From Porticoccus sp. (lineage in GTDB: Bacteria; Pseudomonadota; Gammaproteobacteria; Pseudomonadales; Porticoccaceae): a stretch of 64,000 nt of DNA. Numbering within the stretch: position 1 is the first letter of the stretch; each line of letters begins with the position of its first letter. The notes beneath the pieces were generated by a model that was not told the DNA's origin, made no database searches, and worked only from the letters and a program-made list of their open reading frames with translations. A program made the position numbers and the translations under genes. Positions 948 through 48,342 of the stretch are shown one piece after another. The stretch is from NCBI GenBank assembly GCA_002733125.1, contig NVUM01000007.1, forward strand, positions 1 through 64,000. The letters are read 5' to 3'.

Positions 948-1418
948 GTGAATATTAACCTGACCCTATTCGGGCAGCTGGTTTCTTTTCTGTTCTTTGT
1001 GTGGTTCTGCAAAAAATTTGTATGGGCAGCCATTATCAATGCAATGGAAGAACGGCAGAAGAAAATAGCCGATGGCTTGGATGCAGCAGATCGCGCATCG
1101 CGCGATCTGGAACTGGCCCAAGAAAGAGCCACCGAACGGCTCAAGGAAGCCAAGCAAGAAGCGGCATCCATACTTGAGCAAGCAAATAAGCGTGCTAACC
1201 AGATAGTCGGTGAAGCCAAGGAACAGGCCCGGGCCGAAGGTGATCGTCTCAAAGCAGCAGCTCAGGCGGAAATTGAACAGGACGTTAACCGCGCGAAAGA
1301 AGAGCTTCGTAAAAGGGTTGCCGTGCTTGCTTTGGCCGGTGCTGAAAAAATCTTGCAGGCAAATATCGATGAAAGTGCAAACCGTGCACTGGTCGATAAA
1401 CTTGCAGCAGAGCTGTAA
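948..1418 (+). CDS. atpF: F0F1 ATP synthase subunit b
   Basis: 156 aa, N-terminal TM then long charged coiled coil; operon position. Confidence 0.97.
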
Positions 1419-1430
1419 CCGAGGTTAAAC

Positions 1431-1967
1431 ATGGCTGAATTAAGCACGTTGGCTCGGCCCTATGCAAAAGCGGCTTTTGAATATGCTGCGGAAGCGGGAG
1501 ATCTGCAAAACTGGTCAGATAGTCTTGCTGTAGCCGCTGCTGTAGCACAGCAAAATGTAGTAGAAAAGCTGTTGAGCTCGCCGACTTACACGGCAGCACA
1601 GCAGGCAGAAAAAGTAATCACTGTTTGTGGTGATGCCCTTTCTGGCAAGATGCTGAATTTTATTCGGGTTTTGGCAGACAATCATCGGCTCAAGCTGTTA
1701 CCACAGATATATCAGCAATTTGAGATACTCAAGGCCAACCGCGAAAAAACCGTTGAGGTAAATGTCGTGTCAGCCATGGAGATCACTGCTGAGCAACAAG
1801 AAAAGCTGGCCAGTGCGCTTAGTGCGAAACTGGAACGCACCGTTAATATGCAGATGTCCATCGACAGCACCCTGATAGGTGGTGCTGTGGTACGAGCTGG
1901 TGACACCGTCATAGACGGATCCATACGCGGGCGATTGTCAAAACTCGCCGAAGCATTACATTCATAG
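1431..1967 (+). CDS. atpH: F0F1 ATP synthase subunit delta
   Basis: 178 aa; LARPYAKAAFEYA start and IGGAVVRAGDTVIDGSIRGRLSKL C-terminus. Confidence 0.97.
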   Translation: MAELSTLARPYAKAAFEYAAEAGDLQNWSDSLAVAAAVAQQNVVEKLLSSPTYTAAQQAEKVITVCGDALSGKMLNFIRVLADNHRLKLLPQIYQQFEILKANREKTVEVNVVSAMEITAEQQEKLASALSAKLERTVNMQMSIDSTLIGGAVVRAGDTVIDGSIRGRLSKLAEALHS

Positions 1968-44587: not shown

Positions 44588-47308
44588 ATGAATGATAAAA
44601 CACCGCTCGTACTGGTGGATGGATCCTCCTATCTTTACCGGGCTTTCCATGCCTTACCCCCCCTAATGACTTCGGGCGGACAGCCAACTGGTGCCATCAA
44701 GGGGGTTGTTTCAATGATCCGCCGCCTGTTGAAGGACTACCCGGGAAGTCCTTTGGTGGTGGTTTTTGATGCCAAAGGAAAAACCTTTCGCGACGAACTC
44801 TTTGAAGAGTACAAGTCCCACCGTCCCCCTATGCCCGATGACCTGAGGAAACAGATTGAACCGATCCATCAAATTATCCGTGCCATGGGGTTGCCGCTAC
44901 TGGTGGAAGAGGGCGTGGAAGCAGACGATGTCATTGGCACGCTCGCGCTGCAGGCTTCGAAAAACCGGACACATGTGGTTATTTCCACCGGTGATAAAGA
45001 CATGGCTCAACTGGTTTCCGAGCAGATTACGCTGGTCAACACCATGACTGAAACCGTCATGGACCGGCAGGGGGTAATCGACAAATTCGGCATTCCACCA
45101 GAATTGATGATTGATTATCTGGCGCTGGTTGGCGATAAATCAGACAACATTCCCGGCGTTCCCGGGGTTGGTGAAAAAACAGCGCTGGCCATACTGCAAA
45201 ATCTGGGTGGTATGGATGCTATATACGGCAATCTGGAGGCGGTTGCCGAGCTCGATTTCCGCGGCGCCAAAAAAACACCAGCAAAGCTTGCCGAGAACCG
45301 GGACCAGGCATTTCTTTCCTACCAGCTGGCGACCATTAAAACCGATGTGCCTTTGACGGTGACCTTGTCGGAGCTGAGTAATGGCTTACCCGATAATGCT
45401 GCTCTGCTCCACTGGTTTCGTCAACTGGAGTTCAAGGGCTGGGTTGAGGAATTACTTGCTGCGAGTGAAAGTGACGACGATTTGCCATCGTTAGTGGCTG
45501 ACAAAGACTACCAGGTGGTTCTCACTCAGCAGCAACTCGATCAGTGGCTACAGAAGTTGGAGCAGGCTGAATTGGTCGCCTTTGACACGGAAACCACCAG
45601 CCTCGACTACATGCAGGCCAGTATTGTCGGCGTCTCCTTTGCAATTGCCGCGCATCAGGCGGCCTATGTCCCCCTTGCCCACGACTATCTGGGTGCACCC
45701 CGGCAACTTGATCGGGATACGGTGCTGGAGCAACTGAAGCCGTTGCTCGAGTCACCAAAACTCGCCAAGGTAGGCCAAAATCTCAAATATGACATGAGTG
45801 TACTGGCCAATCACGGTATTGCCATGCAGGGCATACGCTTCGACACCATGCTTGAATCCTATGTGCTGGATTCCACTGCAACACGGCATGATATGGATAG
45901 CCTGGCATTGAAGTACCTCGGGGAAAAAACCACCCACTTTCAGGATATAGCTGGCAAAGGTGTCAGTCAGCTCACCTTCAACCAGATTGCCATTGAGCAG
46001 GCCGCTCCCTATGCGGCAGAAGATGCGGATATCACCCTGAGGCTTCATGAAACACTCTGGCCAAAATTGCAGGATATAACCGGGCTGGCGCATGTTTACC
46101 AGTCCATTGAAATGCCATTGGTGCCTGTTCTGTCAAGAATAGAAAGAAATGGAACAAAAGTAAGTGCTGATTTACTTCGGAAACAAAGCGATCAGTTGGG
46201 TGAACGCATAGCGGCGTTGGAGCAGCAGGCTTTTGAGTTGGCGGGAGAAGAATTCAATCTGGCCTCACCAAAACAGCTCGGCTACATTCTCTTTGAAAAA
46301 CTGAAAATTCCGGTACAAAAGAAAACGGCCAAGGGCGCCGCTTCCACCAAAGAAGAAGTGCTGCAAGAGTTGGCGCTGGATTACCCGCTGCCGAAATTAC
46401 TGCTTGAGCATCGCAGCCTCAGCAAGCTCAAGTCCACCTATACCGATAAGCTGCCTTTGCTCGTCAATCCTGCCACGGGGCGAATTCATACTTCCTATCA
46501 TCAGGCGGTAACGGCAACAGGCCGGTTGTCTTCCTCAGACCCGAATTTACAGAATATTCCCGTGCGTTCTGCAGAGGGACGCCGCATTCGCCAGGCATTT
46601 GTAGCCACAGAGGGTTGCAAGATAGTGGCGGCTGATTATTCGCAAATCGAGTTGCGAATCATGGCCCATCTCTCGGGAGATCGCGGATTAAAAGCGGCTT
46701 TTGAACAGGATCTCGATGTGCACAGCGCCACCGCGGCAGAAGTCTTTGGTGTTGAGCTGGCCTCAGTGACTGGAGAGCAACGGCGCAGTGCCAAGGCGAT
46801 CAATTTCGGGTTGATCTACGGCATGTCTGCCTTTGGTCTGGGCCGCCAGTTACACATTGGACGGAATCAGGCCCAGGAATATATCGACCTGTATTTCGCC
46901 CGCTACCCCGGAGTACAGGCCTACATGGAGTCCACGCGAAAGCGGGCAGCCGAGCAAGGCTATGTAGAGACACTGTTTGGCAGACGCTTGTATCTGCCCG
47001 AAATCAGAGCCAGTAACGGGATGCGCCGACAGGCGGCAGAGCGCACTGCGATCAACGCCCCGATGCAGGGGACAGCGGCCGATATCATTAAACTGGCAAT
47101 GATCAGCGTCGATCAGTGGTTGGCAGATAAAAAGCTCAACGCCAGGATGATTATGCAAGTGCACGATGAACTGGTCCTGGAGGTTCCCCAGGCTGAACTG
47201 GAGGACGTGTTGTCTGGCCTCAAGACTCGCATGAGCAATGCCGCCCGGCTCGACGTACCGCTGGTTGTCGATGTGGGTGTCGGTGATAACTGGGATGAGG
47301 CACATTGA
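44588..47308 (+). CDS. polA: DNA polymerase I
   Basis: 5'-nuclease [17 protein letters not shown]; 3'-5' exo [11 protein letters not shown]; pol motifs [25 protein letters not shown]. Confidence 0.99.
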
Positions 47309-47383: not shown

Positions 47384-47411
47384 GGAACTCAAGCCATAAA
47401 TTACTGACTAA
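47384..47411 (+). promoter_or_regulatory. Sigma-E/AlgU-like promoter of sRNA copy A
   Basis: GGAACTC - N16 - ACTAA, matched by a second copy 190 bp downstream. Confidence 0.5.
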
Positions 47412-47417
47412 CCTTAC

Positions 47418-47521
47418 GAGCAAGCAAAGATTGCTTTGTTCTCCCCAAACTAAATGCAAAGCTCGTTAATCCCCAAACAACAGCAAAGCACGCCCTGATC
47501 TCAATGGTCAGGGTTTTTTTT
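47418..47521 (+). ncRNA. Putative sRNA copy A in the polA-engB (Spot 42/ErsA) locus
   Basis: TTCTCCCCAA, TAAATGCAA, CCCCAA, CAACAGCAAAGCA blocks and terminator CCCTGATCTCAATGGTCAGGGTTTTTTTT; duplicated at 47607. Confidence 0.75.
47493..47521 (+). terminator. Intrinsic terminator of sRNA copy A
   Basis: CCCTGATC-TCAAT-GGTCAGGG + 8 T. Confidence 0.92.
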
Positions 47522-47573
47522 GTCCTGTTAGCGCCACGAAAAAGGCCCTGAATAAAAAACTTCTTACCAGAAT

Positions 47574-47601
47574 GGAACTTTTCATAGGCAGGAGAGACAA
47601 A
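47574..47601 (+). promoter_or_regulatory. Sigma-E/AlgU-like promoter of sRNA copy B
   Basis: GGAACTT - N16 - ACAAA. Confidence 0.5.
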
Positions 47602-47606
47602 TCAAT

Positions 47607-47706
47607 ACAAGCAACATTGCTATTTTCTCCCCAAGTTAAATGCAAGGTTTGTAAACCCCAAGCAACAGCAAAGCATACCCTGATCTCAATGGTCAGGGTT
47701 TTTTTT
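47607..47706 (+). ncRNA. Putative sRNA copy B in the polA-engB (Spot 42/ErsA) locus
   Basis: Diverged tandem duplicate of copy A with identical 29-nt terminator block. Confidence 0.75.
47678..47706 (+). terminator. Intrinsic terminator of sRNA copy B
   Basis: CCCTGATCTCAATGGTCAGGG + 8 T, identical to copy A. Confidence 0.92.
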
Positions 47707-47730
47707 ACACGGCTTATCTTCGAAAGAGGG

Positions 47731-48342
47731 TTATTGGTCGGTCAACCAGGATTGAATCACCAGTTTTAATTGCTCGATGCCGGCTTTCTTCAGCGATGAA
47801 AAGGTTTGTACTGTCACCTCATCCCCGAAACCGGCTTTGGCCAGCTCGCGTTTGACCGTCAGAAGTACCGTTTTAGCGGGTCCATTGTTCAATTTGTCCG
47901 CTTTGGTGAGCAATAGATGAACCGGCATGGCAGACTGTGTGGCCCAGCCGATCATCTGCCAGTCATATTCCTGCAATGGATGGCGAATATCCATCAGCAT
48001 CACAAGGCCTCTCAGGGATCGGCGTTGTTGCAGATATTCGGCAAGGTTGCGATCCCACGCCTGTTTCATGGCCTTCGGTACTTTGGCAAAGCCGTAACCG
48101 GGCAAATCCACCAGGCGACAGTTTTCGGTCAGGGAAAAAAAGTTGAGCAACTGTGTGCGGCCCGGTGTTTTGCTGGTCCGGGCCAATTTGCTATTGTTGG
48201 TAAGGGTATTGATGGCGCTGGATTTCCCGGCATTGGAGCGTCCGGCAAACGCAACTTCCCTGCCGACATCCTCCGGGCATTGCCAAACAGTCGGGGCGCT
48301 GATGAGAAATTGAGCCTTGGTAAAAGAGATTTCTTCTGACAT
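47731..48342 (-). CDS. engB: Ribosome biogenesis GTPase YihA/YsxC
   Basis: [39 protein letters not shown]. Confidence 0.98.

Follow-up and report, generated by a model that had tools for sequence, protein, structure and literature searches.

Two tandem sRNA-like genes with sigma-E-type promoters between polA and engB in Porticoccus

What is encoded in the gap between polA and engB, a place known in other bacteria for small RNA (sRNA) genes, in the marine genus Porticoccus? In the window, as we call the whole 64,000-nucleotide stretch of Porticoccus sp. DNA that was analysed, polA (DNA polymerase I; 44588–47308, + strand; Pfam PF00476, PF02739 and PF01612) and the gene of the EngB/YihA/YsxC GTPase (47731–48342, − strand; TIGR03598, 243.8 bits) converge on a gap of 422 bp; past engB follow a cytochrome c gene and then a gene for a DsbA-like protein. 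An earlier note, made from the sequence alone, had proposed two sRNA genes in this gap, each with its own sigma-E-like promoter. The explanation that we favour, with a probability of about 0.72, is that the units belong to a new family of C-rich sRNAs that act in trans, are driven by sigma-E and have been duplicated.

Two terminated units and their predicted fold

Both unit sequences quoted in the earlier note are present base for base, and the sequence bears out two discrete sRNA-like genes in the polA–engB slot. Unit A (47413–47521) and unit B (47601–47706) lie on the + strand, sense to polA, which reads toward both. Each is about 105 nt long, with a predicted RNA of about 100 nt that would begin on the + strand at about 47417–47420 in unit A and about 47606–47609 in unit B. 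The covariance model built from the units, R1, scores them at 103.9 and 113.2 bits, respectively, each sequence being itself in the model. Each unit ends in an intrinsic terminator (47492–47521 and 47677–47706, + strand), found by a terminator scan and showing compensatory changes across relatives, and the 29-nt terminator block (from CCCTGA to GGGT8) is identical in both, as had been claimed. The resemblance of the two units extends over 90 of 109 aligned positions; against 1000 shuffles that kept dinucleotides, it reaches z = 18.6 for the whole unit and z = 12.7 without the terminator, and therefore goes well past the terminator. The 64 kb contain the block TTCTCCCCAA just twice (0.13 expected), at 47439 and at 47625, a distance of 186 bp. 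Judged by sequence, A and B are paralogs.

In the RNAalifold consensus of 19 units, a first hairpin of the form AGC-RAYRTT-GCT is separated by an open stretch, which contains CUCCCCAA, from a second hairpin, and the terminator comes last; in unit A the first hairpin (AGC...GCT) occupies 47423–47435 on the + strand, as placed by the consensus and by pair counts. The putative C-rich seed, UUCUCCCCAA, lies in the open stretch at 47439–47448 in unit A, where it was called from the conserved core of the Porticoccus units (alignment A1), and at 47625–47634 in unit B, where it was called from its occurrence in the sequence (both + strand); unpaired probabilities entered both calls. The core is the same in both copies, and over 25 units the C-rich stretch has a mean unpaired probability of 0.86, compared with 0.50 for the units as a whole. 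Relative to shuffles, folding is better in unit A (z −3.3) and moderately so in unit B (z −2.2). Under the three-helix fold, 96.0% of cells are paired and 17 cells are changed on both sides, values that none of 500 shuffles equalled and that lie far above slid controls; 39 sequences, aligned by fitting to the model, gave the same outcome. Double changes are strongest in the terminator, and hairpins 1 and 2 are nearly invariant in Porticoccus, showing more double changes only in the wider, model-fitted alignment. A possible long-range pairing of the 5′ arm with GCUUG was set aside, since its register differs by eye in unit A.

These pairing data also bear on a possible coding role of the units, as genes of small peptides or as leader ORFs, for which a 65-aa frame that crosses unit B (47572–47769) and an ATG inside the TAAATGCAA block might speak. 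This we regard as highly improbable: insertions in unit B of two relatives (2 nt in G005, 1 nt in G011) shift the 65-aa frame, in unit B the frame opened by the TAAATGCAA ATG runs for four codons before it stops, not every unit retains the block, and the changes follow RNA pairing.

Conservation, copy number and evolution in the Porticoccaceae

Across six close genomes, mean identity is 95.4% for promoter A, 97.1% for unit A, 95.5% for promoter B and 96.2% for unit B, whereas the spacers reach 51.6% (polA side), 81.8% (between the units) and 77.0% (engB side). The earlier note had named a case in which terminators alone are maintained; this case is excluded, because the terminator-free bodies, at 95–97%, are nearly as conserved as the whole units. 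The same numbers weigh on the view that the conserved elements do no more than terminate transcription of polA (and engB), or are a processed 3′ UTR of polA, with no independent sRNA gene. A strong terminator does end each unit, and polA reads toward both, as such a view would have it. Yet the bodies and promoters stand out from the spacers, the similarity of A and B lies far above chance without the terminator, each unit has a promoter motif of its own, and the terminators are without a T tract on the engB strand; we therefore consider this view improbable and retain that of two sRNA genes.

The region was found by DNA search in most of Porticoccus, and R1 matched 14 of the 17 genomes sampled from Porticoccus and 58 of 113 from the Porticoccaceae. 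As for the proposed comparison of copy numbers in relatives, whole units are conserved beyond this genome, usually with at least two in Porticoccus. The lineages in question belong to the Porticoccaceae, not far from the Cellvibrionales-type genomes named in the earlier note. R1 finds exactly two copies in the window's genome, both in the polA–engB gap. Two units are present in twelve genomes (G000, G002 to G007, G009 to G011, G013 and G015), although in G010 they sit at the ends of two contigs, so that the count is a minimum; G008 and G016 have three. G001 and G014, with genomes of 1.2–1.3 Mb, each carry one diverged unit behind GAACTTT...TCTAA, which the R1 genome scan did not detect; G012, whose contig ends in engB, was left out of the gap reading. 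As in multicopy (sibling) sRNAs, there are thus two units in the window's genome and two or three in most Porticoccus genomes. In other Porticoccaceae genera one copy in the same slot is usual, as it is the rule per genome in genus g10, and all 15 of the R1 matches extracted from other genera adjoin polA or engB.

Several of these gaps hold further elements. In six gaps from other genera (L048, L050, L055, L016, L018 and L151), the first unit matches R1 or the broader model R2, weakly in L048 and L050, and a second unit of another type follows, with its own GAACT promoter and a stem-loop that contains CUCCUCCCCCUCUUGG or a similar sequence. In L050 this second type recurs as a shortened third copy. 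The gap L052 (G020) has three repeats of the terminator segment GCCCCAACCGTTTTGGTCTGGGGC with its surroundings, as if a single unit had been partly duplicated in tandem, and in L049 (G023) a long inverted-repeat block (GAGACTCGCTGTGAA...), possibly a mobile or repeat element, precedes the single unit. In Gilvimarinus (L077, L078 and L080), the polA–engB gaps hold C-rich, terminated units of other sequence together with one or two promoters of the sigma-E type, as do those of Neptuniibacter, Marinobacterium, Osedax symbionts and Simiduia (L084–L105); these units are candidates for further undescribed sRNA families.

How have the two copies evolved? In the window's clade, orthologs are 96% and 95% identical and paralogs 80%, so each copy has been conserved as an ortholog of its own; this fits maintained differences, and is compatible with different functions without implying them. 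In G007, the two copies are 94% identical to each other, and in a tree of the units, which has many open forks, grouping is mainly by subclade and by position only within subclades. Taken together, the tree and the identities fit a history in which duplication recurred, or gene conversion acted, and both copies were then stably kept. The earlier note had suggested sub-functionalisation, in which the copies differ in targets or induction. Although compatible with our main explanation, and in line with the gap between ortholog and paralog identities and with conserved differences between the promoters, this is doubtful given the shared seed core, the near identity of the copies in G007 and the clustering by subclade, which would also suit a dosage role. 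Under our preferred explanation, the copies would have arisen by tandem duplication within Porticoccus and, since promoter type and core were both kept, probably add up in their effect on common targets, any differences outside the core being secondary.

Short units unlinked to polA were also seen: two flank a BLUF photoreceptor gene in G003 (contig C108; L183, about 642–745 and 1501–1606), one lies by a glutamine synthetase gene in G005 (C28; L213, about 1002–1100, minus strand) and one is in G010 (C9; L214, about 1505–1602, minus strand). They are about 66–75 nt long, with a GAACTT-type promoter, a CUCCC(C) core and a terminator. They score 26–35 bits with R2, and chance matches on the antisense strand scored up to about 27 bits with R1, so that the weaker ones rest mainly on promoter and CUCCC core as judged by eye. 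The R1 scan of the window's genome found no unlinked unit.

Sigma-E-type promoters and the sigma-E system

The RpoE/AlgU-type promoter that had been proposed ahead of each unit is upheld by motif match and conservation. Promoter A (GGAACTC-N16-ACTAA; 47384–47411, + strand) has GAACTC rather than GAACTT and so deviates at the sixth −35 base, while promoter B (GGAACTT-N16-ACAAA; 47574–47601, + strand) has, in ACAAA, a weaker −10 form than the ACTAA of promoter A and of most relatives; in G011, the −10 element of promoter B is ACTAA. The pattern GGAACT-N16-18-CWAA matches both promoters and one further site in the 64 kb (0.6 expected). On a wider scale, GAACT-N15-18-NC[AT]NA occurs in the sense of polA in 61 of 75 distinct polA–engB gaps across the order, a set whose members lack phylogenetic independence, a few of them being nearly identical, compared with three for the reversed control; the Pseudomonas loci of the sRNA ErsA are among the gaps with the motif. 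Genome-wide, GGAACTT-N15-17-CTAA is not enriched over the control in 17 Porticoccus genomes, and the promoter call therefore rests on position and conservation; 13 among the 31 matches listed from this search belong to the polA–engB locus.

The window's genome encodes RpoE (314 bits; cut-off 236), RseA_N and MucB_RseB domain proteins and Hfq, with rpoE, rseA and rseB together; upstream of rpoE, no auto-promoter was recognised by eye. ErsA is strictly dependent on sigma-22 by experiment (PMC7565897). This dependence, the promoter in 61 of the gaps and the RpoE/RseA/RseB system of the genome make sigma-E control of units A and B likely. With a promoter of its own, a defined 3′ terminator and probably no translated frame, in a genome that has the sigma-E system, each unit shows the sequence features of sigma-E-dependent sRNAs.

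Relation to known sRNAs and probable function

ErsA regulates the algC, oprD, amrZ and anr mRNAs in Pseudomonas. The earlier note placed the units in the ErsA/Spot 42 slot; position and promoter type stand, and membership in either family is not supported. With ErsA/Pseudomon-1 (RF01719) the units share the place and strand between polA and engB, a GAACT-N16 sigma-E/AlgU promoter, C-rich segments, a terminator and an outline of several helices with an unstructured stretch (PMC8575079), whereas sequence and profile similarity is undetectable, ErsA is about 132 nt long rather than about 100 nt, and the Pseudomonas gaps that were read hold one copy rather than the two to three of Porticoccus. Spot 42 (spf, RF00021) shares the slot but is under cAMP/glucose control (CRP-repressed, glucose-induced), in contrast with the sigma-E-type motif here. 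The recommended Rfam comparison came out negative: neither RF01719 (gathering score 50 bits) nor RF00021 matched the window at its gathering score or at E values up to 10, while RF01719 recognised five Pseudomonas loci in the same library at 122–134 bits. In the reverse direction, R1 had no match in the Pseudomonas loci and R2 reached at most 14.7 bits (E about 1.5). Matches of other Rfam families at E values of 0.1–5 (Thr_leader, Hrs1) were dismissed as far below gathering scores and largely terminator-based.

Could the units nevertheless be sequence-divergent members of ErsA or Spot 42, with the regulons of those RNAs? Slot, strand and promoter geometry are the same as those of ErsA, and so is the outline of a hairpin, an unstructured stretch and further hairpins. 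The failure of the models in both directions makes such membership unlikely, even though an origin in common may lie too far back for them to pick up, and on present sequence evidence the units are analogues of ErsA by place, promoter and architecture, not demonstrated members of its family.

Other systems offer parallels for copy number and mode of action. A second sRNA gene beside Spot 42 has a precedent in VSsrna24 of the Vibrionaceae, which is about 60 nt long, limited to that family and expressed oppositely to Spot 42 (PMC3295665). The sX13 RNA of the Xanthomonadaceae, compared here by description and not by sequence, lies downstream of polA and pairs, through C-rich motifs, with G-rich ones close to start codons; it differs in being a single gene that works without Hfq, and in the accessible part of its description no sigma-E-type promoter is mentioned (PMC3771888). 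LhrC1-5 of Listeria monocytogenes are multicopy and induced by cell-envelope stress, and their CUCCC sites, in loops and single strand, block the Shine-Dalgarno sequence; they differ in coming from an unrelated organism, in their LisRK two-component control and in needing no Hfq (PMC4132741).

By likeness to sX13 (PMC3771888) and LhrC (PMC4132741), the C-rich stretch most likely base-pairs with G-rich translation-initiation regions. Under envelope stress, RNA polymerase with RpoE (sigma-E/AlgU) would start each of the two paralogous units from its own promoter, and each RNA of about 100 nt would stop at its own intrinsic terminator. In the folded RNA, UUCUCCCCAA would be exposed on a single strand between the 5′ hairpin and a second hairpin, in which another CCCC is often presented; the terminator with its U tail would follow. 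Pairing of the C-rich stretch, probably helped by Hfq, would repress the paired mRNAs as part of the envelope-stress response. The genome has hfq, and the units have a U tail and an exposed C-rich stretch, but Hfq may not be required, as the likewise C-rich and polA-linked sX13 works without it (PMC3771888). A search of the window's genome for TTGGGGAG-N2-12-ATG gave eight matches, including the antisense of unit B, compared with six in the control, which is chance level and leaves no visible enrichment of full-seed targets. A duplex scan with crude gene calls, covering the 5′ regions of the window's genes, TonB receptors, rpoE and hfq, found no convincing envelope or outer-membrane target; its best match, purE (25406), was discarded as a self-complementary, terminator-like hairpin.

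Place and promoter type are already known from ErsA. The units are very probably genes of a small regulatory RNA, and this RNA would form a new sequence family, with tandem copies in a known kind of sRNA locus and no Rfam family match; in the open-access literature we found no paper on Porticoccus sRNAs and no description of duplication into two to three copies. Most of the sampled polA–engB gaps have a sigma-E-type promoter, usually ahead of a terminated C-rich unit, with RNA sequences that differ beyond recognition between families. Tentatively, and short of an even chance in our estimate, the gap may be a fast-evolving nursery of sigma-E-controlled C-rich sRNAs in the Pseudomonadales and their neighbours, in which the promoter slot is retained while its RNA changes: by replacement, by duplication (to two or three units in Porticoccus, with a second unit of another type in sister genera) and by copying to other parts of the genome (as in G003, G005 and G010). 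This would give Porticoccus a multi-gene sigma-E RNA regulon. With one, two or three tandem copies and a conserved core, the Porticoccus genomes form a natural series in which additive dosage versus division of labour can be tested within one marine genus.
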